Notes under the pieces: generated by a model
What the model saw: only the letters and a program-made list of their open reading frames with translations
What the model was told of the DNA's origin: nothing
The model's database searches: none
Part shown: one piece after another, positions 70 to 24,857 of the stretch
Position numbering within the stretch: position 1 is the stretch's first letter
Layout of the letters: every line of letters starts with the position of its first letter
Made by a program: the position numbers and the translations under genes
Virus record (IMG/VR): IMGVR_UViG_3300033142_000474
Location: 1-26,167 of that record
Direction: 5' to 3' (one strand)
DNA length: 26,167 bases
DNA from: a virus

Positions 70-101
70 TATTATCTTTACTTGTTCGTATTAACATTGT
101 A
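70..101 (-). promoter_or_regulatory. Promoter-like 32-bp motif, copy 1
   Basis: Read on the minus strand, it matches TACA(N3)T(N)A(N2)ACGA(N)CA(N6)GAT(N)ATA, shared with the copies at 890-921, 1006-1037 and 1173-1204. GATAATA could act as a -10 element, and the ACGA/TACA blocks as an upstream recognition region. It overlaps the 3' end of the 78-305 gene and lies just upstream of the ATG at 62. The promoter role is an inference. Confidence 0.6.
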
Positions 102-305
102 TAAATGAATAAGTAAGTCTTCAGTTCTATCTAAGTTGTCTAAGTAATATTGAGCTTCTTCCTCGCTTATTCTACCATTACTTATGTCTTCTTTTATCCA
201 AGTCATTTGATCTTGAACATTATCTATTGCTTCATTCCAATAAGCTTGTTCAGGTAGTTCATACGGTTGTAGTAGTTGGAGTACTGTTATTATTACTTTA
301 ATCAT
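78..305 (-). CDS. Small protein, 75 aa, unknown function
   Basis: I chose the ATG at 305; a TTG at 311 would add two residues. The ATG gives an 8-base overlap with the stop of the 30-aa gene upstream (ATGATTAA), a sign of translational coupling. The N-terminus is hydrophobic (MIKVIITVLQLLQPYELP), possibly a membrane or signal-type segment. The rest is acidic and probably helical (EEEAQYYLDNLDRTEDLL). It is the last gene of a leftward four-gene set (859 down to 78). No family is recognised. Its 3' end overlaps promoter-like motif copy 1, and a degenerate copy of its last codons appears near 906-935. Confidence 0.65.
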   Translation of the reverse strand: MIKVIITVLQLLQPYELPEQAYWNEAIDNVQDQMTWIKEDISNGRISEEEAQYYLDNLDRTEDLLIHLYNVNTNK

Positions 306-390
306 TGTCAAATATTTCTTTAATTGATGTTACTAATATTGTTATTGTTACTATCGCTGCGAAAGCAATTGGTGCTGCTAAAAAGATCAT
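298..390 (-). CDS. Tiny membrane protein, 30 aa
   Basis: The frame encodes a peptide starting MIFLAAPIAFAAIVTITI and ending SIKEIFDND: one hydrophobic segment of about 20 residues with a charged tail. It is too short for ordinary ORF calling. The start ATG at 390 overlaps the TGA of the upstream gene in an ATGA junction (387-390), and its TAA overlaps the next ATG (305). Coupling on both sides is the main reason to call it real. Its function is unknown; it is likely a single-pass inner-membrane microprotein. Confidence 0.5.
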   Translation of the reverse strand: MIFLAAPIAFAAIVTITILVTSIKEIFDND

Positions 391-548
391 AGTTTGTTTA
401 CTTTATATATTACTTCGTTCATAATTATTCCTAGTTCATCTTGCATGAAGTCATACATTGACTCACATATATATTCTTTGTCATTAGTTAAATATAATGG
501 TTCTTCTATCTCACCATAGTATATTTCGAATTCATAAGTATCATTCAT
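387..548 (-). CDS. Small acidic protein, 53 aa, unknown function
   Basis: The ATG at 548 (MNDTYEFEIYYGEIEEPLYL) is preferred because it follows an AT-rich leader (AAACAATAAATTAATAACT) like other starts here. A GTG at 593 would add 15 residues, but those codons contain a C(UUCG)G hairpin (571-584) more typical of untranslated RNA. The product is acidic and aromatic-rich, with no recognised family. Its stop overlaps the next ATG (ATGA). Confidence 0.6.
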   Translation of the reverse strand: MNDTYEFEIYYGEIEEPLYLTNDKEYICESMYDFMQDELGIIMNEVIYKVNKL

Positions 549-570
549 AGTTATTAATTTATTGTTTAAG

Positions 571-584
571 ACTACCGAAGTAGT
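571..584 (-). other. UUCG-tetraloop RNA hairpin upstream of small gene
   Basis: On the minus strand the sequence is ACTAC-TTCG-GTAGT, a perfect 5-bp stem closed by the extra-stable C(UUCG)G loop. No U-tract follows, so it is not a classic terminator. It lies between the 76-aa gene and the ATG at 548. It could be an mRNA stabiliser, a processing signal, or coding sequence if the GTG start at 593 is used. Confidence 0.4.
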
Positions 585-603
585 TTCGATCACTTAGATC
601 TCA

Positions 604-616
604 TCAGTTAAACTGA
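604..616. other. 13-bp palindrome, possible operator
   Basis: TCAGTT-A-AACTGA is a perfect dyad with a single central base, in the gap between two leftward genes just after the stop at 629. It has the shape of a small repressor site, but a palindrome this short can arise by chance in AT-rich DNA. Confidence 0.25.
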
Positions 617-628
617 GTAATTAGTTTA

Positions 629-859
629 CTAAGATATTGTACTTAGTTCTCTGCAAAACTTTGGTACAGTATTGCTATTTGTATATGACTTGTATTCTTG
701 AAAACACTTCATTGATTCAAACTTTTCTTGATATGTTGAGTACACTTCATCGTGATCATAAGTGAAAGTCACATTTTTCTTGTTAGTAAAAGTTATTACT
801 TTGTTTTCGCCGATTAAAGATTTTCTTATCACAAATCTTTTTGTAGTTAAATTATTCAT
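629..859 (-). CDS. Small basic protein, 76 aa, unknown function
   Basis: This is the first gene of the leftward set. It starts at the ATG at 859 after an AT-rich leader, with promoter-like motif copy 2 ending 31 bases upstream. The product is soluble, with Lys/Thr/Phe-rich alternating residues (KRFVIRKSLIGENKVITFTN), suggesting a small beta-rich fold followed by a helical tail. It ends with TAG, a stop used only twice in this window. No family is recognised. Its position in a run of tiny leftward genes suggests an early or accessory phage protein, by analogy only. Confidence 0.65.
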   Translation of the reverse strand: MNNLTTKRFVIRKSLIGENKVITFTNKKNVTFTYDHDEVYSTYQEKFESMKCFQEYKSYTNSNTVPKFCRELSTIS

Positions 860-889
860 AGTTTATATTTGTTATTTAGTTTATATTTA

Positions 890-921
890 TATTATCTTTA
901 CTTGTTCGTTATTAGTTTGTA
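890..921 (-). promoter_or_regulatory. Promoter-like 32-bp motif, copy 2
   Basis: It has the same invariant positions as copy 1, including the whole 19-bp ACGAACAAGTAAAGATAAT core. It lies 31 bases upstream of the ATG at 859, a normal promoter-to-start distance. It is the best placed of the four copies as a promoter, probably for the leftward gene set 859-78. Confidence 0.65.
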
Positions 922-980
922 AAGGTGATTGTTTGTTTATTAGTTTAATTTTAGTTAGTAGTACAACACTTGATTTCTCA

Positions 981-998
981 ATAACTTACATAAGTTAT
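981..998. other. 7-bp perfect hairpin in the leader region
   Basis: ATAACTT-ACAT-AAGTTAT is a perfect 7-bp stem with a 4-base loop. It lies directly downstream of promoter-like motif copy 3 on the minus strand, so it would form at the 5' end of a transcript from that copy. No ORF lies between copy 3 and copy 2. It may be a leader element or a small untranslated RNA. Confidence 0.3.
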
Positions 999-1005
999 AT
1001 ATTAT

Positions 1006-1037
1006 TATAATCATATAGTGTTCGTAGTTACTATGTA
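1006..1037 (-). promoter_or_regulatory. Promoter-like 32-bp motif, copy 3
   Basis: It matches the shared motif with GATTATA in place of GATAATA. It begins immediately after the stop of the 31-aa ORF (1038-1133). No gene lies between it and copy 2, so it could be a tandem promoter for the 859-78 set. Confidence 0.55.
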
Positions 1038-1133
1038 TTACTTAATTACTAGTAACATAATGAAGTAAGAAATAAAGATTACTTGCATTGAAATTGAAAT
1101 TGAATTTGATTTGATAAAGTTTAAAGTTTTCAT
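1038..1133 (-). CDS. Tiny putative membrane protein, 31 aa
   Basis: The peptide begins MKTLNFIKSNSISISMQVIF and ends with a hydrophobic run, ISYFIMLLVIK. It would be a single-pass microprotein with a basic N-terminus. The ATG at 1133 follows a long AT-rich leader (AATTAAATAAAATAAATTCT) 40 bases downstream of promoter-like motif copy 4. Its stop abuts copy 3. The flanking motifs are the main support, since 31 codons alone prove little. Confidence 0.4.
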   Translation of the reverse strand: MKTLNFIKSNSISISMQVIFISYFIMLLVIK

Positions 1134-1172
1134 AGAATTTATTTTATTTAATTATTAATTTATTTACATATA

Positions 1173-1204
1173 TATTATCATGTGATGGTCGTAGTTAGTT
1201 TGTA
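1173..1204 (-). promoter_or_regulatory. Promoter-like 32-bp motif, copy 4
   Basis: It carries the same invariant blocks (TACA, ACGA, CA, GATAATA) at identical spacing, with a divergent spacer (TCACAT). It is the most upstream copy, 40 bases before the ATG of the 31-aa ORF. Confidence 0.55.
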
Positions 1205-3679: not shown

Positions 3680-5230
3680 ATGGAAGAAGTAAAGTTAGTA
3701 AAACAACTGGCCTTTGGTGAAACTGCTAAAGGCCAGATACTAGCTGGCGTAGATAAACTAACTAATGCAGTTGGATCTACATTAGGTGCCAGTGGTAAAT
3801 GTGTTATACTTGAAGACCAAAATGGTAAACCACAAGTAACAAAAGATGGAGTAACAGTAGCTAATTCAATTACGCTAATGAATCCATTAGAAAATATTGG
3901 AGCAACGCTTATTAAGCAAGCAGCTCAAAGAACTGTTAAAGATGCTGGAGACGGTACAACTACCGCGACTATATTAGCACAAGCTATATTAAACGAACAT
4001 GAAAAACATAGTGAGTTAGATAGTTTGAGAAATATAAAATCAGGTATAAGTAGTGCAGTAGACAATGTCGTAACTTATCTTAATAAAAAAAGTAAAAAAG
4101 TAAAAGGTAAGAAGATAGATCAAGTAGCAACTATATCAGCTAACAATGATAAAGTTATTGGCAAAGTAATAGCTAACGCTTTTAAAATGGTGGACAATGA
4201 TGGTGTTGTTATAATGGAGGTTAATGAAAAGCCTGAAACCGAAGTAGAGTTAATAGAAGGAGTACAGTATAACCAACCATTAACTAGTCCTCACTTTATC
4301 ACTAACAAAGAAAAAGGCACATCAGAACTAGATAGTCCATATGTATTAATAATAGATTCTGTAGTAGATAATGTTAGAAAAATACAAAACGTTTTAGAAT
4401 ACATTATTAAAACTAATAAGAGTTTATTAATCATAGCAGATGTAGATCCACAAGTTGGTAATGCATTAGCGATGAATAAAGTTAAGGGCAACATAAAGAT
4501 AAACATTGTCAATGCTCCTGTATATGGTATTAACAGAAAAGAAACATTAAGTGACTTATGCGACATAACAGGTGCTACTTTAATAGATGAAGACTTAGGA
4601 GATGACATGGATATAGTATCTGTTGATTTATTAGGTAAATGCTCTAAATCTATAACCGGTTCAGAAGATACGTTAATACAAGTTGACTTATCTAACAATG
4701 ACATAGTAAAAGATAAGATTAAAAACCTAGAGGATCTAGTTAAGAAAACTAGAAATCCAAACTCTAAGATTAGGTACGAAAAAAGATTAGCAATGTTAAA
4801 AGCTAAAATGGCTGTTGTTAAAGTTGGAGCTAATTCTGAAGTAGAACTTAAAGAAAAGAAAGATAGAGTTGAAGATGCTATATGTGCTACAAAAGCCGCG
4901 ATTAAAGAAGGTATAGTACCAGGAGGAGGTATTGCATTATTAAATGCATCTCAACAATTAACTCCTAAAAATGTAGGAGAAGAAATATTGTATTGTGCTA
5001 TAAGAAAACCTTATGAAACTATATTGCATAACGCAGGTATAGATCATAGTAAAGTTTCAATTAGAGAAGAAGGCATAGGATTAAACGTGGTTACAGGAGA
5101 TGCGGTAAATATGGTAAAAGCCGGAATTATAGATCCATTGCTTGTTACTAAAAGTGCTTTACAAAACGCGGCTTCAGTGGCAACAACTATAATATCTACC
5201 GATTGTGTAATCAATAACATTAGAGCATGA
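3680..5230 (+). CDS. groEL: Phage-encoded chaperonin GroEL (Hsp60)
   Basis: A 516-residue group I chaperonin subunit. Family hallmarks are intact: TKDGVTVA (D56, equivalent to E. coli D52), the ATP-binding DAGDGTTTAT loop (88-97, with D91 equivalent to D87), an apical domain around SLLIIADVDPQVGNALAMNK, and the equatorial VKVGANSEVELKEKK plus RVEDAI segment. D399 there matches the hydrolysis Asp398 of E. coli, and GIVPGGGIAL follows. It is about 30 residues shorter than E. coli GroEL and lacks the Gly-Gly-Met tail. Known GroELs form tetradecameric rings that refold proteins with GroES and ATP. Here it presumably folds capsid or fibre proteins or replaces the host ring. The ATG follows AATTTAATTAAATAAA; its stop overlaps groES as ATGA. 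Confidence 0.96.
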   Translation: MEEVKLVKQLAFGETAKGQILAGVDKLTNAVGSTLGASGKCVILEDQNGKPQVTKDGVTVANSITLMNPLENIGATLIKQAAQRTVKDAGDGTTTATILAQAILNEHEKHSELDSLRNIKSGISSAVDNVVTYLNKKSKKVKGKKIDQVATISANNDKVIGKVIANAFKMVDNDGVVIMEVNEKPETEVELIEGVQYNQPLTSPHFITNKEKGTSELDSPYVLIIDSVVDNVRKIQNVLEYIIKTNKSLLIIADVDPQVGNALAMNKVKGNIKINIVNAPVYGINRKETLSDLCDITGATLIDEDLGDDMDIVSVDLLGKCSKSITGSEDTLIQVDLSNNDIVKDKIKNLEDLVKKTRNPNSKIRYEKRLAMLKAKMAVVKVGANSEVELKEKKDRVEDAICATKAAIKEGIVPGGGIALLNASQQLTPKNVGEEILYCAIRKPYETILHNAGIDHSKVSIREEGIGLNVVTGDAVNMVKAGIIDPLLVTKSALQNAASVATTIISTDCVINNIRA

Positions 5231-14191: not shown

Positions 14192-14899
14192 ATGGGTTAT
14201 ACATTTGGACAAGAAGGAGGAACTACATACGGTTTAGTAGACTGGAATGATATATTTAGTCCAGCTACAACAATTCCATGGGATGATATATTACAAGACT
14301 TAGATACAGTAATATGCAGAATGCCTTATACTATAGTCAATGACGGTGGTGGTACAGTTAATATGGTTGCTCATAGGTTATTAACTAACTATAAAATATA
14401 TGGTTATAACCATTGGTTTGGTGATGGTATTGCTTTAGCTTTAAATGTTTCAACTCATAACTTTATTCCAGGAGAACCTTGTTTGATATCCACTGATTCA
14501 GCTGGGACAGGTAGCGGTTTGATTAACGTAAGAGCTTGTATAGAAAAAGTTTCAAGTAGTCCTGGTGTTAATGACTTATCTTTAGGAATAGTTTTAGAAA
14601 CTACAGCAGCATATAACGATGAAGATTTTTCTGCCAACTATACTTCTGTAATAGTTTCAGGAGTAACACCAGCACTAAGAGATAATACATCAAGCACAGT
14701 AGAATATGGAGAACCATTATTTTACGATACGGATAATGTTGGAGCACTTCCTTTTAGTAGAGGTGTTTGTATAACTCAAGCTAACGCAGCTGGTCAAGTA
14801 GGAAGAGTATTGTCTAGAGATACTGACATACCTATAAGCGCAACAGAACAGTGGACAGGTTGCACGGCTTTATTATTTAACAAAGCAGAATTATACTAA
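14192..14899 (+). CDS. Putative virion surface protein, 235 aa
   Basis: This beta-rich protein is rich in Gly, Thr, Asn and Asp. The central region FIPGEPCLISTD and the later VEYGEPLFYDTDNVGALPFS resemble the 'xxGxPLxxD' barrel turns of capsid decoration proteins (DUF2190-like), but the match is only suggestive. No signal peptide or membrane segment is seen. It starts one base after the fibre gene and is followed by two similar-sized beta-rich proteins, so they probably form a virion-surface set. Confidence 0.5.
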   Translation: MGYTFGQEGGTTYGLVDWNDIFSPATTIPWDDILQDLDTVICRMPYTIVNDGGGTVNMVAHRLLTNYKIYGYNHWFGDGIALALNVSTHNFIPGEPCLISTDSAGTGSGLINVRACIEKVSSSPGVNDLSLGIVLETTAAYNDEDFSANYTSVIVSGVTPALRDNTSSTVEYGEPLFYDTDNVGALPFSRGVCITQANAAGQVGRVLSRDTDIPISATEQWTGCTALLFNKAELY

Positions 14900-16528: not shown

Positions 16529-16751
16529 TGTAATAAGAAAAATAAGTATAGGTTCTGATTACAAAAATGATGCCATGCATTATTCAGTAGGTCAAGAAGT
16601 CTATGGAGGACATACTATTTGCGATATAATTGGTGACCAAGGAGATGGAGATTATTTAATATATATAAAAAAAAATAAAGAAGTTTTACCTTGGAAAAAA
16701 TTTAATCGTAATATGGCTATAGCGGTTGAATTTGATCTTAAGTATGAATGA
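16521..16751 (+). CDS. Conserved-type small protein, 76 aa
   Basis: It opens MSNVIRKISIGSDYKNDAMH, followed by YSVGQEVYGGHTICDII, and ends WKKFNRNMAIAVEFDLKYE. It is a soluble alpha/beta-type protein with no known motif; I recall proteins with this opening from phage genomes without assigned function. Overlaps with both neighbours (8 bases upstream, ATGA downstream) place it in a tightly coupled cassette leading into the packaging genes. Confidence 0.6.
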   Translation: MSNVIRKISIGSDYKNDAMHYSVGQEVYGGHTICDIIGDQGDGDYLIYIKKNKEVLPWKKFNRNMAIAVEFDLKYE

Positions 16752-17341
16752 GAACTTTATATAATTTTTTAATAAGACCCTACAATGATCGATATAACAA
16801 TACAAGAAAAATTGGTGATAACGATCTTATTGTTAATAGTAATATTGAAGATCATAAATTCGTTAGTAAGAAAGCAGTAGTTGTTTCTACACCAGCTGCT
16901 TTCGATACTGACATAAGAACTGGTGATATAGTCTATGTACATCATAACATATTTAGAAGATGGTATGATCAAAAAGGTAAAGAACGAAACAGTTCAACGT
17001 ACTTTAAAGACGACTTATATTTCTGTAGTTTAGATCAGATATATATGTATAACTCAAAATGTCATTTAAACTATTGCTTTGTAAAACCTATAAAAGATAA
17101 ATCATTCCTAAGTATAGGTAGGGAGCAACAACACTTTGGGATACTAAAACATTCTAATAAGTCTTTAGAAGATGTAGGATTGAAACCTGGGGCGCTTGTG
17201 ATATTTACACCGAACTCCGAATTTGAATTTATTATAGACGATGAACGTCTTTATTGTATGAAATCTAATGATATAGCTTTAACTCATGAACACAAAGGAA
17301 ACGAAGAAGAAAATAATCCAAGCTGGGCAAAAGGCGGTTGA
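16748..17341 (+). CDS. Putative tandem GroES-fold protein, 197 aa
   Basis: Two halves each resemble a GroES-type beta-barrel. Half 1 (about 1-101) has NFLIRP, KKAVVVSTP, then RTGDIVYVHHN (58-67, like the VGDxVxF strand) and LYFCSLDQIYMY (90-101, like DILAIV). Half 2 (about 105-181) has YCFVKPI, FGILKHSN, then KPGALVIFTPNSEFEFIIDD (147-165) and RLYCMKSNDIALTHE. Neither half has an obvious GroES mobile loop, so binding to GroEL is uncertain. It may instead use the fold structurally in head assembly. It lies upstream of the terminase genes in an ATGA-coupled cassette, separate from the phage groELS pair. The domain call is by eye. Confidence 0.5.
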   Translation: MRTLYNFLIRPYNDRYNNTRKIGDNDLIVNSNIEDHKFVSKKAVVVSTPAAFDTDIRTGDIVYVHHNIFRRWYDQKGKERNSSTYFKDDLYFCSLDQIYMYNSKCHLNYCFVKPIKDKSFLSIGREQQHFGILKHSNKSLEDVGLKPGALVIFTPNSEFEFIIDDERLYCMKSNDIALTHEHKGNEEENNPSWAKGG

Positions 17342-17561
17342 GGAACTTATTAAGGTGGCTAAAGAAAAGATCGTAGACTCAGACGATGATGTGAGCGCTG
17401 ACAGACTTAAAAATGCTGCCGCTACTAAAAAGCTAGCTATATTTGATGCTTTTGAAATATTAACTAGAATAGAAGAAGAAGAACTAAGATTAATTGAAAA
17501 ACCTAAAGATATTAAAGAAGAAAGAGTATTTAAAGGTTTTGCAGAAGGGCGTAGCAAATGA
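17286..17561 (+). CDS. Candidate terminase small subunit, 91 aa
   Basis: A small, charged, all-helical protein (KKIIQAGQKAVEELIKVAKE, then SADRLKNAAATKKLAIFDAF, then EILTRIEEEELRLIE). It ends in an ATGA overlap with the large terminase gene. Position, size and helical content fit a small terminase subunit, which recognises phage DNA and regulates the motor. A DNA-binding helix-turn-helix is not obvious, so the call rests mainly on position and on similar helical proteins next to TerL in Bacteroidota phages. The start at 17286 overlaps the previous gene by 56 bases, unusually long, but no better start is available. Confidence 0.55.
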   Translation: MNTKETKKKIIQAGQKAVEELIKVAKEKIVDSDDDVSADRLKNAAATKKLAIFDAFEILTRIEEEELRLIEKPKDIKEERVFKGFAEGRSK

Positions 17562-19786
17562 GTTATGAACAAACACTTTGGAAAGAAGTTGATGATGTGG
17601 TTAATAAAAAAATCATGTCTACAAATAATAGGTACAGTAAGTGGGAGTATGGTTACAACCCTGATTACGACTTTGTATGCATAAGTAAAAGTGGAAAAAT
17701 TGGAAAGATCATTGAAGTTCAAAACCTCCGTATTGCTTTACCAGCAGAACGTGAACCGTTTAAACGAAGCGAAAGCAAGAAGGAACAGTTCTGGCAAAAA
17801 CAACCCTACCCTAAAGAATTAGCAAAAATTAAAAGTAGGTTTGATTGGGATGAATATCCTACAGATTTTAAAGAAAAATGGTTTGATTATATAGATGAAG
17901 AATTTAAACGAAGAGAGCTGGGTTATTGGTTCTATAATGGTGGTGTGGCCACTTATATTACTGGTACTCATTACATGTATTTGCAATGGTCAAAGATCGA
18001 CGTCGGAGCTCCCGATTATAGAGAGTCAAATAGACTCTTCTTTATATTTTGGGAAGCATGCAAAGCCGATGATAGATGTTATGGAATGTGTTATCTTAAA
18101 AACAGACGGAGTGGCTTTAGCTTCATGTCATCCGCAGAACTTGTTAACCAAGCCACAATATCTTCAGACGCTAGATTCGGCATCCTTTCAAAGACTGGAT
18201 CAGATGCTAAAAAAATGTTCACAGATAAAGTTGTCCCGATATCCGTTAACTATCCGTTTTTCTTCAAACCAATCCAAGATGGTATGGATCGTCCTAAGAC
18301 CGAACTGGCATATAGAGTCCCAGCTTCAAAACTTACTAGACGTAAAATAGAAAGCAACGAACAACTTAGAGAATTACAAGGTCTTGATACAACTATAGAT
18401 TGGAAAAATACAGGAGATAACTCCTATGATGGTGAGAAGTTAAAAATACTAGCTCACGATGAAAGTGGTAAATGGGAAAGACCTGATAATATATTAAACA
18501 ACTGGAGAGTTACAAAAACTACATTGAGATTAGGATCAAGGATCGTAGGAAAATGTATGATGGGCTCAACTTCAAATGCATTAGATAAAGGTGGAGATAA
18601 CTTCAAAAAATTATACTACAATTCAAACGTTACAGAAAGAAATAAAAACGGACAAACGTCTAGCGGACTGTATTCTCTTTTCATCCCTATGGAGTGGAAC
18701 TACGAAGGATTCATGGATACTTTTGGATTACCTGTATTCACTACGCCGACAGATCCAATCAAAACAAAACAAGGTGGAACAGTTACTCGAGGAGTAATAG
18801 ACCACTGGAATAACGAAGTAGAAGGTTTAAAGCAAGATCAAGATGGATTAAATGAATATTACAGGCAATTTCCAAGAACAGAAGAACATGCTTTTAGAGA
18901 CGAAACAAAGAATAGTTTATTTAATTTAACTAAGATATATCAACAAATAGATTTTAACGAAGAAATTAATAATAGAACTGCTATAACTCAAGGGAGTTTT
19001 ATGTGGGAAAACGGTATTAAAGATACAAACGTTATATTTTTACCTAATAATAATGGTAGGTTTAAAATATCTTGGGTTCCACCTAAAAATTTACAAAATA
19101 GAGTGATTATAAATAATGGAACTAGATACCCTGGAAACGATCATATCGGAGCATTTGGTTGTGATTCTTATGATATTAGTGGTACTGTCGATGGCCGCGG
19201 GTCTAAAGGAGCACTTCATGGATTAACTAAGTTCTCAATGGAAGATGCGCCGCCTAATCATTTTTTTCTAGAATATGTAGCAAGACCACAGACAGCTGAA
19301 ATATTTTTTGAAGAGATATTAATGGCTTTAGTTTTTTATGGTATGCCTATATTAGCTGAAAACAATAAACCTAGACTATTGTATTATTTAAAAAGAAGAG
19401 GTTATAGAGGTTTCAGCATGAATAGACCAGACAGGTTATATAATAAGCTATCTACAACAGAAAGAGAAGCTGGTGGAATACCAAACTCAAGTGAAGATAT
19501 TAAACAAGCACATGCGGCAGCAATAGAGTATTATATTGAAAATCATGTAGGAGAAATAGAAAGTGGATATGGTGATATGTATTTTAATAACACACTTAAT
19601 GACTGGGCTGGCTTTAATATTAATAATAGAACTAAACATGATGCTTCTATAAGTTCTGGGCTAGCTATAATGGCTTGTAATAAAAACAAATATAGACCAA
19701 TACCTGAAAGAGCTAGTAAAGCTCCTTTAGATTTAGGAATAAGAAGATACAATAATGAAGGATCTATTTCACAAATAATTAAATAA
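17558..19786 (+). CDS. terL: Terminase large subunit (packaging ATPase and nuclease)
   Basis: This 742-residue motor pumps DNA into the prohead and cuts it. The ATPase domain has a deviant Walker A, KNRRSGFSF (181-189), with the Lys at the front as in lambda gpA (KSARVGYSK) and no classical GK[ST]. It has a Walker B LKILAHDE (295-302, D301 and E302) and a coupling motif, GSTSN (336-340). The RNase H-like nuclease domain shows GCDSYD (D536), an acidic helix, TAEIFFEEIL (579-588), and KHDAS (D695). GYWFYNGGVATYITGTHYMY (122-141) is shared with terminases of other Bacteroidota phages as I recall them. It is coupled to the candidate TerS by ATGA and followed directly by the portal gene. Confidence 0.93.
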   Translation: MSYEQTLWKEVDDVVNKKIMSTNNRYSKWEYGYNPDYDFVCISKSGKIGKIIEVQNLRIALPAEREPFKRSESKKEQFWQKQPYPKELAKIKSRFDWDEYPTDFKEKWFDYIDEEFKRRELGYWFYNGGVATYITGTHYMYLQWSKIDVGAPDYRESNRLFFIFWEACKADDRCYGMCYLKNRRSGFSFMSSAELVNQATISSDARFGILSKTGSDAKKMFTDKVVPISVNYPFFFKPIQDGMDRPKTELAYRVPASKLTRRKIESNEQLRELQGLDTTIDWKNTGDNSYDGEKLKILAHDESGKWERPDNILNNWRVTKTTLRLGSRIVGKCMMGSTSNALDKGGDNFKKLYYNSNVTERNKNGQTSSGLYSLFIPMEWNYEGFMDTFGLPVFTTPTDPIKTKQGGTVTRGVIDHWNNEVEGLKQDQDGLNEYYRQFPRTEEHAFRDETKNSLFNLTKIYQQIDFNEEINNRTAITQGSFMWENGIKDTNVIFLPNNNGRFKISWVPPKNLQNRVIINNGTRYPGNDHIGAFGCDSYDISGTVDGRGSKGALHGLTKFSMEDAPPNHFFLEYVARPQTAEIFFEEILMALVFYGMPILAENNKPRLLYYLKRRGYRGFSMNRPDRLYNKLSTTEREAGGIPNSSEDIKQAHAAAIEYYIENHVGEIESGYGDMYFNNTLNDWAGFNINNRTKHDASISSGLAIMACNKNKYRPIPERASKAPLDLGIRRYNNEGSISQIIK

Positions 19787-22177
19787 ATGAAGATTTACAC
19801 AAACAATAGTAGTAGTTTTCCAGATCAGGTAGTACCTGATGAGGTTAAGAAAAGTTGGGAGTACGGGCAAAAAGTAGGTCGTGCTATTGAAGGTGATTGG
19901 TTTAGTGGAACTAGATCTGGAGTAGATAATAGATGGAATACTAATTTTAATAACTTTAGAATGCGCAGGTTGTATGCCCGTGCAGAACAACCAGTTCAAA
20001 AATATAAAGATGAGTTAGCTATTAATGGTGACTTGTCGTACTTAAACCTAGACTGGAAGCCAGTTCCTATTATACCTAAGTTTGTAGACATAGTGGTTAA
20101 TGGAATGGATGATAAGCTTTATGATATAAAAGCTTTTTCTCAAGATCCTGAATCAAGAAAAATGAGATCTAAGTATGCAGAAGATATACTTAGAGATATG
20201 CAAGCAAAAGAATTTTTAACGAGCTTACAGCAAGCTGTTGGTTTAAATCTTTTTAATACTTCTAATCCTGAAGAACTTCCTGAAAATAAAGAGGAGTTAG
20301 ATTTACATATGCAATTATCTTACAAGCAGGCTAGTGAAATAGCGTGTGAAGAAGCTATAAATAATACGTTAGATTATAATAAATATAACTTAACAAAAAG
20401 AAGAGTTATAGAAGACTTAGTTACCCTTGGTATAGGTGCTGTGAAAACAAGTTTCAACAAAGCTGAAGGTGTTACTGTAAAATATGTAGATCCAGCTAGA
20501 ATGGTATACTCATATACGGAAGATCCTAACTTTGAAGATATATGGTACGTAGGTGAAGTAAAAAGTATTACACTTGAAGAGTGCAAAAAAGAGTTTCCTC
20601 ATTTAACAGATGCTGAATTAGAAGAACTTCAAAGATACCAAGGTAATAGTAATTTCTTATACAACTGGAATGGTAGACAAGATGGAAACGCAATATATTT
20701 ACTATACTTTGAATACAAAACTTATAGTGATCAAGTTTTTAAAATTAAGAAAACACCAACAGGTTTAGAAAAGTCGTTAGAAAAACCAGACACTTTTAAT
20801 CCGGAGCCAAATGAAAATTTTGATAAAGTTTCTAGATCAATAGAAGTTTTATATAGTGGTGTAAAAGTTTTAGGTTATGATATGATGCTACAGTGGAAGA
20901 TGGCTGAAAACATGACTAGGCCAAAGTCAAATCTGGTTAAAGTTAATATGAATTATAATATCTGCGCTCCTAAATTATACATGGGTAGAATAGAAAGTTT
21001 AGTAAGTAGAATGATGGGCTTTGCAGATATGATTCAACTTACTCATTTGAAGATACAACAAGTTATATCTAAAGTTATACCAGATGGCGTGTATTTAGAT
21101 GTTGATGGCTTAGCAGAAGTGGACTTAGGTAATGGTACTAGTTATAATGCTAAGGAAGCTTTAAATATGTACTTTCAAACTGGTAGTATATTAGGTAGGT
21201 CGATGACTCAAGAAGGAGATCCAAATCCGGGTAGAATACCTATACAAGAATTACAAGCTAGCTCAGGTGGTAATAAAATACAATCACTTATATCTACTTA
21301 TCAATATTACTTACAAATGATAAGAGATGTTACCGGACTTAACGAGGCTAGAGACGGTAGTATGCCTAATTCAGACTCATTAGTAGGTTTACAGAAACTA
21401 GCAGCAGCTAATAGTAATACTGCTACTAAACACATATTAAATTCGTATTTATATTTAACTATAAGAACTTGTGAGAATATAGTACTAAGAACGTCAGACG
21501 CTTTACAATTTGAATTAACAAATGAAGCTCTTAAAAACAGTATATCAACTTGGAATGTAGGTCAATTAAATGACTTAGAAGATATGCATCTATATGATTA
21601 TGGTATATATTTTGATTTAGTTCCTGATGAAAAAGAAAAAGATCAACTAGAGCAAAATATACAAGCAGCTATAGCAAGTGGAAGTATAAATTTAGAAGAC
21701 GCTATAGATATTAGGCAAATCAACAACTTGAAATTAGCTAATCAAATGATTAAGCTGAAACGTAAGCAAGCTGCTAAAGCAGCGCAAGAAGCTAACGAAG
21801 CAAACATAGCTGCCCAAGGTGCTGCTAATGCACAGGCTAGTGAAGCTGCTGCAATGGCAGAAGTTCAGAAAAAGCAAGCAACTATGGATGTTGATTTAAA
21901 AGTTGCAAAAGGAAAATCTCAATTTGAAATAGAAAGAATGAGAGTTGAAGCTCAAATAAAAAGAGAATTAATGGAGCTTGAGTTTAATTATAACATGCAA
22001 TTGGGTCAGCAAAAAATAAACAGAGAGTCTGAAAGAGAACAAGAAATAGAAAACAGAAAAGATAAACGAACTAAAATCGTTGGAACACAACAAAGCGCAA
22101 TGATAGATCAAAAGAAAAATGATCTTACACCTATCGACTTTGAAAACGAATCAGGTGAAACAGCGCTTAACATTTAA
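19787..22177 (+). CDS. Portal protein, 796 aa
   Basis: The dodecameric portal forms the DNA entry channel at one capsid vertex. The stretch KYNLTKRRVIEDLVTLGIGA followed by VKYVDPARMVYSYTEDPNFE and DIWYVGEVKSITLEECKKEF is the characteristic wing/stem region of long (about 800 aa) portals of the crAss/P22-like type. The C-terminal 150 residues are a long Ala/Gln/Glu/Lys helix (KLKRKQAAKAAQEANEANIA), matching the helical barrel that reaches into the capsid. It starts immediately after the terL stop (TAA-ATG). The function is assigned from sequence style plus position between TerL and scaffold. The crAss-like affinity is an impression. Confidence 0.88.
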   Translation: MKIYTNNSSSFPDQVVPDEVKKSWEYGQKVGRAIEGDWFSGTRSGVDNRWNTNFNNFRMRRLYARAEQPVQKYKDELAINGDLSYLNLDWKPVPIIPKFVDIVVNGMDDKLYDIKAFSQDPESRKMRSKYAEDILRDMQAKEFLTSLQQAVGLNLFNTSNPEELPENKEELDLHMQLSYKQASEIACEEAINNTLDYNKYNLTKRRVIEDLVTLGIGAVKTSFNKAEGVTVKYVDPARMVYSYTEDPNFEDIWYVGEVKSITLEECKKEFPHLTDAELEELQRYQGNSNFLYNWNGRQDGNAIYLLYFEYKTYSDQVFKIKKTPTGLEKSLEKPDTFNPEPNENFDKVSRSIEVLYSGVKVLGYDMMLQWKMAENMTRPKSNLVKVNMNYNICAPKLYMGRIESLVSRMMGFADMIQLTHLKIQQVISKVIPDGVYLDVDGLAEVDLGNGTSYNAKEALNMYFQTGSILGRSMTQEGDPNPGRIPIQELQASSGGNKIQSLISTYQYYLQMIRDVTGLNEARDGSMPNSDSLVGLQKLAAANSNTATKHILNSYLYLTIRTCENIVLRTSDALQFELTNEALKNSISTWNVGQLNDLEDMHLYDYGIYFDLVPDEKEKDQLEQNIQAAIASGSINLEDAIDIRQINNLKLANQMIKLKRKQAAKAAQEANEANIAAQGAANAQASEAAAMAEVQKKQATMDVDLKVAKGKSQFEIERMRVEAQIKRELMELEFNYNMQLGQQKINRESEREQEIENRKDKRTKIVGTQQSAMIDQKKNDLTPIDFENESGETALNI

Positions 22178-23369: not shown

Positions 23370-24857
23370 ATGAGTTTATCAGGAGGAGCTGTTCCACCAA
23401 GTTTAAAACCAATGCCAAATCAGGTAACTGTTCAAGACAATTACATTGACTTTAACAATTTACCAGCAGGTGTAGAACAATGGACACAGCAATATCTACC
23501 AGAATTGTACGAACAAGAGGTAGAAAGATATGGAAACAGAACTTTAGGTGGTTTCCTAAGAATGGTTGGTGCTGAAATGCCAATGACATCGGATCAAGTA
23601 ATTTGGTCTGAACAAAATAGATTACACGTAGCGTATGATACTGTTGAAGTAGCTGCTAATGGTGGTGGTAACAAATGTTTAGTTACTATTACTCCAGGTA
23701 ATGGTAATCCAAGTACTTCAGGTGTTAGAGTTGGTAATACAATTTTAATTTCTGATAACGCTACAGGATTAGTAACTGTTAAAGCTTTAGTTGTTGGATT
23801 AAACAACGCTAATGGTTACGTGTTAGAGTGTGAATTATACGAAAGTACTTTTGCTAATATCCCAGGTGGTATTGTAACAGGTTCAGGTTCTAATAGCTTA
23901 TTTGTATACGGTTCTGAATTTCCAAAAGGAAGTGACGGAATGTCTGGTGCTATTGAGCCAGGTGTTACAACTTACAATAACTCTCCAATTATCTTAAAAG
24001 ATAACTATGAGTTGAGTGGTTCTGATGCTGCTCAAATTGGCTGGATTGAAGTTGCAACTGAAGATGGAACATCTGGATACTTATGGTATCTAAAAGCTGA
24101 AGCTGAAACAAGATTAAGATTTGAAGATTATCTTGAAATGGCTATGGTTGAAGGTGAGAAAATGACAGGTACTGTTGCTTTTGGTGGTAACTTTAAACCA
24201 ACTGGTGGTCCAGTTACTCAAAACATTAAAGGTACTGAAGGTTTATTTGCTGCTATCGAAACAAGAGGTAATGTATACTCTGGTTTTGCTGGTGCTGCTG
24301 CTCCAGGTTCTGGTGCATTAGGAGACTTTGATGAGATCTTAAAGCAATTAGACAAGCAAGGTGCTATAGAAGAAAATATGTTGTTCTTATCAAGACAAAC
24401 TGCTCTTGACTTTGACGATATGTTAGCTGCTGTAAATGGATCTTTTGCTTCTACACAGTCTGCTTCTTTCGGTTTATTCGATAACGAAGCTGAAATGGCT
24501 CTTAACTTTGGTTTCAATGGTTTCAGAAGAGGTTCTTATGACTTCTACAAAACTGATTGGAAATACTTAAATGATGCTACTACTAGAGGATTAGATAACG
24601 CTATTGATGGTGTTATGATACCAGCTGGTACATCTACAGTATACGACCAAATGATGGGATCTAATATCAGAAGACCTTTCTTACACGTAAGATATAGAGC
24701 TTCTGAAACAGAAGATAGAAGATTCAAAGCTTGGATCACAGGATCTGTTGGTGGTGCTTATACTACTGATTTAGATGTATTAAGAGTTAACTTCTTATCT
24801 GAAAGATGTTTAGTTACGCAAGCTGCAAATAACTTCGTGTTATTTAAAGGAGCTTAA
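23370..24857 (+). CDS. Major capsid protein, 495 aa
   Basis: It is the presumed HK97-fold shell protein. The N-terminal arm (1-45) leads into QYLPELYEQEVERYGNRTLG and FLRMVGAEMPMTSDQVIWSE, a conserved-looking opening. A long beta-rich middle follows, ending in RRPFLHVRYRASETEDRRFK and a strand-rich C-terminus. The gene follows portal and scaffold, and a strong terminator sits directly after its stop, as after many phage capsid genes. Codon usage is visibly more regular (many GGT, GCT, TTC) than in flanking genes, consistent with high expression. HK97 fold is expected for the family, not shown here directly. Confidence 0.88.
   Translation: MSLSGGAVPPSLKPMPNQVTVQDNYIDFNNLPAGVEQWTQQYLPELYEQEVERYGNRTLGGFLRMVGAEMPMTSDQVIWSEQNRLHVAYDTVEVAANGGGNKCLVTITPGNGNPSTSGVRVGNTILISDNATGLVTVKALVVGLNNANGYVLECELYESTFANIPGGIVTGSGSNSLFVYGSEFPKGSDGMSGAIEPGVTTYNNSPIILKDNYELSGSDAAQIGWIEVATEDGTSGYLWYLKAEAETRLRFEDYLEMAMVEGEKMTGTVAFGGNFKPTGGPVTQNIKGTEGLFAAIETRGNVYSGFAGAAAPGSGALGDFDEILKQLDKQGAIEENMLFLSRQTALDFDDMLAAVNGSFASTQSASFGLFDNEAEMALNFGFNGFRRGSYDFYKTDWKYLNDATTRGLDNAIDGVMIPAGTSTVYDQMMGSNIRRPFLHVRYRASETEDRRFKAWITGSVGGAYTTDLDVLRVNFLSERCLVTQAANNFVLFKGA

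Follow-up and report, generated by a model that had tools for sequence, protein, structure and literature searches.

A repeated motif that is very likely a transcription-start signal in uncultured phages, and the phage sigma factor that may read it

Four motif copies in the leftward arm of the window

The IMG/VR virus record IMGVR_UViG_3300033142_000474 was analyzed over its whole length of 26,167 bases (hereafter the window). Near its left end a 32-bp motif recurs four times on the minus strand, and the question is what these copies do and, if they are promoters, which protein reads them. A preliminary description, made from the letters of the window, had proposed a phage-specific early promoter or a regulator binding site. 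The comparisons below indicate that the motif is very likely the virus's own transcription-start signal.

The window is organized in two arms. The rightward structural arm includes genes for GroEL (3680-5230), a GroES-like protein (16748-17341), the terminase (17558-19786), the portal (19787-22177) and a virion protein (23370-24857), the first two being annotated as well in Cellulophaga and Flavobacterium phage relatives. The leftward arm, made of small genes, lies to the left of a divergent junction (1205-1547), beyond which the first gene of the structural arm begins (1548-2315). The junction holds inverted repeats (GTGACA...TGTCAC, GGGGTGGGCTACG...) that are very similar in the nearest long relative compared, G001 (IMGVR_UViG_3300025086_000018, 63,514 bp), and partly kept in a second relative, G002; it is possible that this segment is an origin or control region. 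G001 matched 32 of the 39 window ORFs with a mean identity of 91%, and G002 matched 23 of 39 with 67%. At the end of its structural arm G001 encodes a giant protein of 2,988 aa (locus L128, 10914-19880), with counterparts in G002, G003, G010 and G016, for which Pfam returned no significant domain and PHROGs a weak match to a polynucleotide kinase (phrog_415, 1.2e-5, residues 2129-2308).

The four copies (70-101, 890-921, 1006-1037 and 1173-1204) were confirmed as exact matches with equal internal spacing, all on the minus strand and in the leftward arm. Allowing up to three mismatches, five matches (four of them exact) were found in the window, vs. 0.08 expected and a maximum of two in 100 shuffles; the fifth (14656-14687) has three mismatches and lies on the opposite strand, within the structural arm. 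Distances of 8, 31 and 40 bases to an ATG had been reported for three copies, and these hold for 70-101, 890-921 and 1173-1204, respectively, when counted to the A, the bases in between numbering 7, 30 and 39.

With the start base predicted below, each copy can be assigned a putative +1. Copy 4 (1173-1204) would start at the G at 1167 and leave a leader of 34 nt before the ORF of a 31-aa peptide (ATG at 1133), and small ORFs like this one were seen by eye at the corresponding position of both G001 and G002. Copy 3 (1006-1037) bears the variant GATTATA in its -10 part, has its predicted +1 at the A at 1000, and no ORF of at least 20 aa begins within about 90 bases of it. For copy 2 (890-921) the predicted +1 is the A at 884, with a leader of 25 nt before a 76-aa gene on the minus strand (629-859). 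The G001 counterpart of this gene lies at 57273-57503, and each of the eight motif-bearing relatives that were compared has a relative of its G002 counterpart. Copy 1 (70-101), which covers the 3'-terminal part of the leftward ORF 78-311, would start at the A at 64, with a leader of 2 nt before a gene that begins at 62 (MINTKYISTKYLDAIILDDD...) and runs off the window (G001 counterpart, 58377-58640). With a pattern of the same type, seven copies were counted in G001; the first four (56754, 56921, 57193 and 58338) correspond in order to those of the window, and so do the genes that follow three of them.

Between two genes of the same arm, the minus strand at 549-625 contains what looks like an entire hammerhead-ribozyme core (CUGAUGAG...CGAAAC...GUC, comprising stems I, II and III), and the alignment of G001 to the window breaks at this place (569 to 621). 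The candidate scored 23.9 bits against Rfam HH9, below the gathering score of 52, and in a plain fold it was no more stable than shuffles and did not form stem I. A pattern search of the loci of this analysis gave three more cores (L123 at about 7174, L091 at about 1504 and L342 at about 16561), whose stems differ yet pair, and Rfam detected no hammerhead in three stretches of G001 and G002.

The motif family and a sigma70-family protein encoded with it

An exact-pattern scan of IMG/VR yielded at least 118 stretches with 140 sites, which match the pattern by construction. The consensus from 128 distinct sites was TACAAACTAAATACGA-N9-GATAATA; positions left free by the scan pattern were conserved too, and many sites lay directly upstream of an ATG. 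Whole records were then searched, namely 19 long IMG/VR records picked for holding the motif and three GenBank relatives. The 19 records had 3-11 copies each (up to two mismatches), with 127 of 128 on one strand per record, one sequence from G008 sitting at both contig ends and being maybe counted twice among the 128. The reversed pattern gave zero matches in all 22 records, and the motif was absent from the three GenBank relatives (MW202828, Elemovirus NC_055854 and Cellulophaga phage phi38:1 NC_021796), which were scanned whole. BLAST of a 41-base consensus against GenBank phages returned only weak partial matches, and the parts of the open-access literature that were available held no description of the motif, which is a weak negative.

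The placement of the copies was analyzed in five relatives of 63-68 kb under a slightly different rule: 45 copies were on the strand of the motif arm and one on the opposite strand, and 29 of the 45 lay mostly outside ORFs of at least 40 aa (16 mostly inside), in genomes where such ORFs take up 95-97% of the bases. Under the same rule there were no copies in three outgroup genomes (in one of them, G037, 60,000 of 60,577 bases were read). GATAATA was near-constant across lineages, GATTATA also occurring as in copy 3 of the window, and it should be considered that GATAATA also served as anchor of several scans. Random occurrence elsewhere in the genomes and in relatives would have spoken against the preliminary description; the motif instead keeps to one strand and one arm.

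On the motif strand, G001 encodes a 249-aa protein of the sigma70 family. Sigma regions are detectable in it by sequence: region 2 matched phrog_351 (2.5e-13), and among solved sigma factors FliA (1rp3) matched over residues 28-241 at 5e-9. The G001 protein stays below the Pfam and NCBIfam cut-offs (Sigma70_r2 for region 2, 22.1 bits vs. a cut-off of 24; TIGR02937 for the whole length, 33.2 vs. 42.9), the latter of which is exceeded by the G002 protein (54.6 bits). In structure searches with its fold model the best Foldseek E was 9e-6, and the best rows were sigma factors, with Z 13.3 and an rmsd of 16 over 175 residues, the domains being arranged differently and the overall arrangement uncertain (pTM 0.49), while region 2 alone aligned to 3ugo with Z 11.5 and an rmsd of 2.2 over 99 residues.

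Homologues of this protein were found in 18 of the 19 motif records, always on the motif strand. In the remaining one, G016, the contig breaks at that point, the arm running to 65,946 and continuing at 185 with the primase gene, and also missing are the HTH, Erf and exonuclease genes that relatives have there; in G008 the sigma gene is in broken frames, with motif copies present. The sigma gene was found in none of 18 outgroup records lacking the motif, many of which are fragments, and MW202828, NC_055854 and NC_021796 have neither motif nor sigma. A set of 28 records (29-77 kb) was picked by terminase similarity only. The 15 that lie near MW202828 had neither motif nor sigma, five first-look sigma candidates failing to reach E 0.001; nine of these 15 are shorter than 50 kb and are therefore probably fragments. 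Among the 13 near the window, all three above 60 kb have the sigma gene; motif copies number 7 and 15 in two of these, and the remaining one is the variant G027 described below. In these 13 records the sigma gene was present in four (G021, G027, G028 and G029), at least four motif matches in four (G028, G029, G030 and G032) and a single match in another four (G020, G021, G025 and G027, two of these with two mismatches). G030, G032 and G020, all below 50 kb, have the motif without the sigma gene, as does the window's own 26-kb record. Since motif and sigma gene both follow one phage clade, their co-occurrence does not amount to many independent events.

By tblastn at E 0.001 the G001 sigma had no match in 50,697 GenBank phage records, a set from which records very near the window may have been left out. 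In a one-per-species genome collection nine contigs matched it. The matching bins bear the names Lewinella, Sphingobacteriales, Saprospiraceae and Flavobacteriaceae, besides three contigs in an Aliivibrio bin and one in an Ilumatobacteraceae bin, both taken to be binning errors; a Ruminococcus bin gave a weak partial match. The hosts of the motif-bearing phages, whose long records mostly measure 60-77 kb, are probably in Bacteroidota.

Predicted start site and promoter layout

In order to locate the start of transcription, 80 loci were picked by their sigma gene alone from at least 463 IMG/VR stretches; they comprise 70 different sigma sequences, and a few of them belong to records of the first set. 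In these loci, GATAATA followed by an ORF start within 70 bases occurred 493 times on the sigma strand vs. 28 on the other. Motif-like sites were then defined without the use of ORFs, as an exact GATAATA with at most 4 of 13 upstream positions off; there were 328 on the sigma strand vs. 3 on the other, and 314 of the 328 lay upstream of the sigma gene. As control we took the 330 GATAATA sites, on both strands, with at least 8 of the 13 positions off, sites with 5-7 off being dropped.

Position 38 of the motif, seven bases after GATAAT, was a purine in 321 of the 328 motif sites vs. 182 of the 330 control sites (Fisher p 5e-44), and in 284 of 291 once the sites with an ATG at this position were set aside. 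G reached 39% at this position, vs. 0-12% at the eleven other positions listed. An ATG lay exactly at position 38 in 37 motif sites, vs. 2 and 9 one base to either side and 3 of the 330 controls; judged from sequence, genes of this kind would be leaderless. An ATG at offset 3 was commoner (87 motif sites), and in the sites that were read it is directly followed by a stop (ATGTAA), which puts a G at position 38. The purine and the pile-up of ATGs at a fixed distance imply that GATAAT behaves as a -10 element, bearing out the resemblance to a -10 box that had been noticed in the window. Short or missing leaders also suit the probable hosts: Bacteroidetes mRNAs are described in PMC6847099 as naturally without Shine-Dalgarno sequences, a lack with which A-rich or absent leaders fit.

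Features of a sigma70-type promoter were found together, i.e. a -10 element 6-7 bp from a predicted purine start and a conserved element near -35. If position 38 is +1, the proposed promoter would have TACAAAC at -37 to -31 (lineage variants exist), ATACGA at -27 to -22 and GATAAT(A) at -12 to -6. The two upstream blocks form a near-repeat at 11-bp spacing (TACAAAC/TACGAAC).

One family of small genes departs from this arrangement. In eight loci (L343 at 8731, L348 at 2215, L351 at 8277, L353 at 8234, L354 at 8686, L361 at 8222, L362 at 7158 and L380 at 8713), and also in L006, the ATG of the small gene overlaps the motif end (GATAATATG) and lies upstream of the predicted start; this gene therefore cannot be read from there, and it may be read from further upstream. 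The eight loci are exactly those that have no HTH protein (see below), one per member of their clade.

Candidate readers of the motif

We read the motif as the core promoter from which the non-structural arm is transcribed; the enzyme that opens it is most likely host core RNA polymerase together with the phage sigma. To this reading we assign a probability of roughly three in four. It agrees with the promoter proposal of the preliminary description, which is strengthened by the restriction to one strand and one arm, the mostly non-ORF placement, the purine start and the leaderless ATGs. The holoenzyme would open GATAAT and start at the purine of position 38. In the 50 loci that extend more than 6 kb to the upstream side of the sigma gene and contain one or more sites there, the closest of these sites is a median 2.7 kb from the gene, so that transcription of the sigma may start at the very promoters it reads. 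Encoded further downstream on the same strand, it would then feed back positively on its own synthesis, and we infer this loop, as well as the reading of the motif by the sigma. The motif arm begins with small genes, followed by replication genes; as the likely reader is encoded downstream in this arm, delayed-early or middle expression is as likely as early expression.

A sigma made from the motif arm cannot start the first round. A strict host-type promoter pattern did not occur at the junction and, in the three genomes compared, was about as frequent as in shuffled sequence, which leaves weak activity of a host sigma on the motif promoters, read-in, or a virion-borne factor as possible sources of the first sigma.

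A second protein is encoded close by. It has about 206 aa with a C-terminal helix-turn-helix (HTH), and its gene was found in 17 of the 19 motif records (not in G016, nor in G019, whose contig ends inside the sigma gene), and in G021, G028 and G029; G027 lacks it. Of the 80 sigma loci, 72 have it, at no more than about 340 bases upstream of the sigma. It occurred in none of five long outgroup records tested, NC_055854 giving one partial match at 3e-4. The fold model (pLDDT 88.6) had a best Foldseek E of 0.91, and the helix-turn-helix matches from VIA-align were short and fell almost entirely in residues 146-204 (Z up to 6.2), results that exclude no protein family. This protein may help to read the upstream boxes, which vary among lineages. 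G027 and five relatives have (T/A/G)CGAA in place of TACAA, the G027 variant being (T/A)CGAA...ATACGA-N9-GATAATA; G030 has mostly ACAA for ACGA; and other upstream variants are TACAAACAAAATA..., AAAAGGGTTGACACGA or CCCCAACTAATTAC.

The eight loci that lack the HTH protein group in a single clade (support 95/84 with a midpoint root), in which six have the distal box (T/A/G)CGAA, and L348 and L362 keep TACAAAC without ACGA. CGAA was found at the distal box in none of the 61 HTH-bearing loci that matched the pattern (61 of 72 had any match). This distribution hints at a box-related role for the HTH protein, resting on one loss, and a simple rule by which the protein sets the distal box did not hold up, as L348 and L362 have TACAAAC without it. 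On the sigma side, the region 4.2 helix does not differ between TACA-box and CGAA-box lineages, and the columns that mark CGAA loci mostly mark their clade. Residue 58 is I in five of the six CGAA loci, whereas both TACA members of the clade and 69 of 72 other loci have V. Within the clade this residue and residue 18 go with the box, and both are outside region 4. For the variation of ATACGA, no sigma or HTH column offered a clear explanation (best p 0.003 over about 250 sigma columns, 30 vs. 11 loci) in a scan that used 41 of the 51 loci with at least three usable sites, 10 intermediate loci being dropped.

The proposed promoter was compared with known systems. Phage-encoded sigmas with promoters of their own include gp28 of SPO1 (middle genes) and gp55 of T4 (late genes). 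A sigma70-family phage protein, a consensus of its own (as read here), a -10 element and normal start spacing are shared with these, while the sequence (TACAAAC/ATACGA/GATAAT), the third conserved block within the spacer and the phages concerned are different. FliA (sigma28) promoters read TAAA-N15-GCCGATAA; GATAA in the -10 element is common to both, and sequence and fold comparisons with the phage sigma include the FliA structures 1rp3 and 1sc5 among their matches, yet the TACAAAC box at -37 to -31, the TAAATACGA block in the spacer and the spacing differ, and the phage sigma falls far below the FliA_WhiG cut-off. Housekeeping promoters of Bacteroidota have TTTG at -33 and TAnnTTTG at -7. 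The probable host phylum and the short or A-rich leaders are the same, whereas neither element is present in the motif consensus, as had been pointed out for the copies of the window. The 7-bp near-direct repeats with an 11-bp pitch, in place of a -35 element, recall PhoB-type activated promoters; in contrast to those, no PhoB-like protein was identified and the repeat is weak in some lineages.

Other readers would account for part of these observations. A phage RNA polymerase, virion-borne or single-subunit, might read the promoters, the sigma serving something else. In promoters of T7-like single-subunit polymerases, +1 is the first base of the downstream conserved block, and the ATACGA block with its 15-base distance to GATAATA resembles a T7 promoter whose +1 would be the G of GATAATA, a start which the ATG overlapping GATAATATG would fit. 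The purine and the accumulated ATGs at position 38, though, put the start 12 bases past that G, and a T7-type promoter was rejected on this ground. Some enzyme must carry out the first round of transcription when there is no sigma yet, and a giant protein of about 2,450-3,040 aa, in G001 without a clear known domain, ends the structural arm; against this, Pfam found no RNA polymerase in the giant protein of G001 or in its 1,499-aa protein, a DxDxD motif is present in the G002 giant (DLDVD at 1931) and not in that of G001, and PF00940 was found in 0 of 20 records, which counts little since the controls were silent too. On balance we regard a phage polymerase as unlikely. A crAss-like virion RNA polymerase, guessed from gene order, was rejected: the terminase relatives are phages of Flavobacterium, Cellulophaga, Tenacibaculum and Maribacter, and the taxonomy of two of them names Elemovirus and Pervagoviridae, not Crassvirales.

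It is very unlikely, in our judgement, that the upstream 16 bp instead serve as an operator at which a phage activator, be it the HTH protein or a different one, brings host RNA polymerase and a host sigma to GATAAT in the manner of a PhoB box. The 11-bp-spaced near-repeat at the place of a -35 element, the G030 variant, the HTH protein in 72 of 80 loci and the CGAA box in 6/8 loci without vs. 0/61 with it are in line with such an operator; yet the eight HTH-less loci represent a single loss, with TACAAAC kept in two of them, the phage sigma is present in all 80 loci (though by selection), and GATAAT is unlike the Bacteroidota -7 element. That the motif is a chance repeat, or one that serves replication, packaging or recombination, seems scarcely credible. 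The window copies are near the divergent junction, one has no clear ORF downstream, and 16 of the 45 copies in the five relatives are mostly inside predicted ORFs; the strand bias, the fixed distance to the purine and the leaderless ATGs, as well as the many different genes that the motif precedes, argue otherwise.

Recognition of the motif by the phage sigma may be extended, tentatively, to a two-protein system in which the sigma and its dedicated, side-by-side HTH partner would read a three-part promoter (TACAAAC, ATACGA and GATAAT) with some leaderless genes, the upstream boxes drifting by lineage and the -10 being nearly fixed. If this were true, the promoter code would be private to each of the related phages. 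For a widespread group of uncultured phages (at least 463 IMG/VR stretches with a sigma relative), the analysis provides a promoter map with a predicted start base, a likely reader and a natural series of promoter variants. The rules of transcription in the probable host phylum differ from those of E. coli, and both the promoters and the sigma could be tested in Flavobacterium without a phage in hand.
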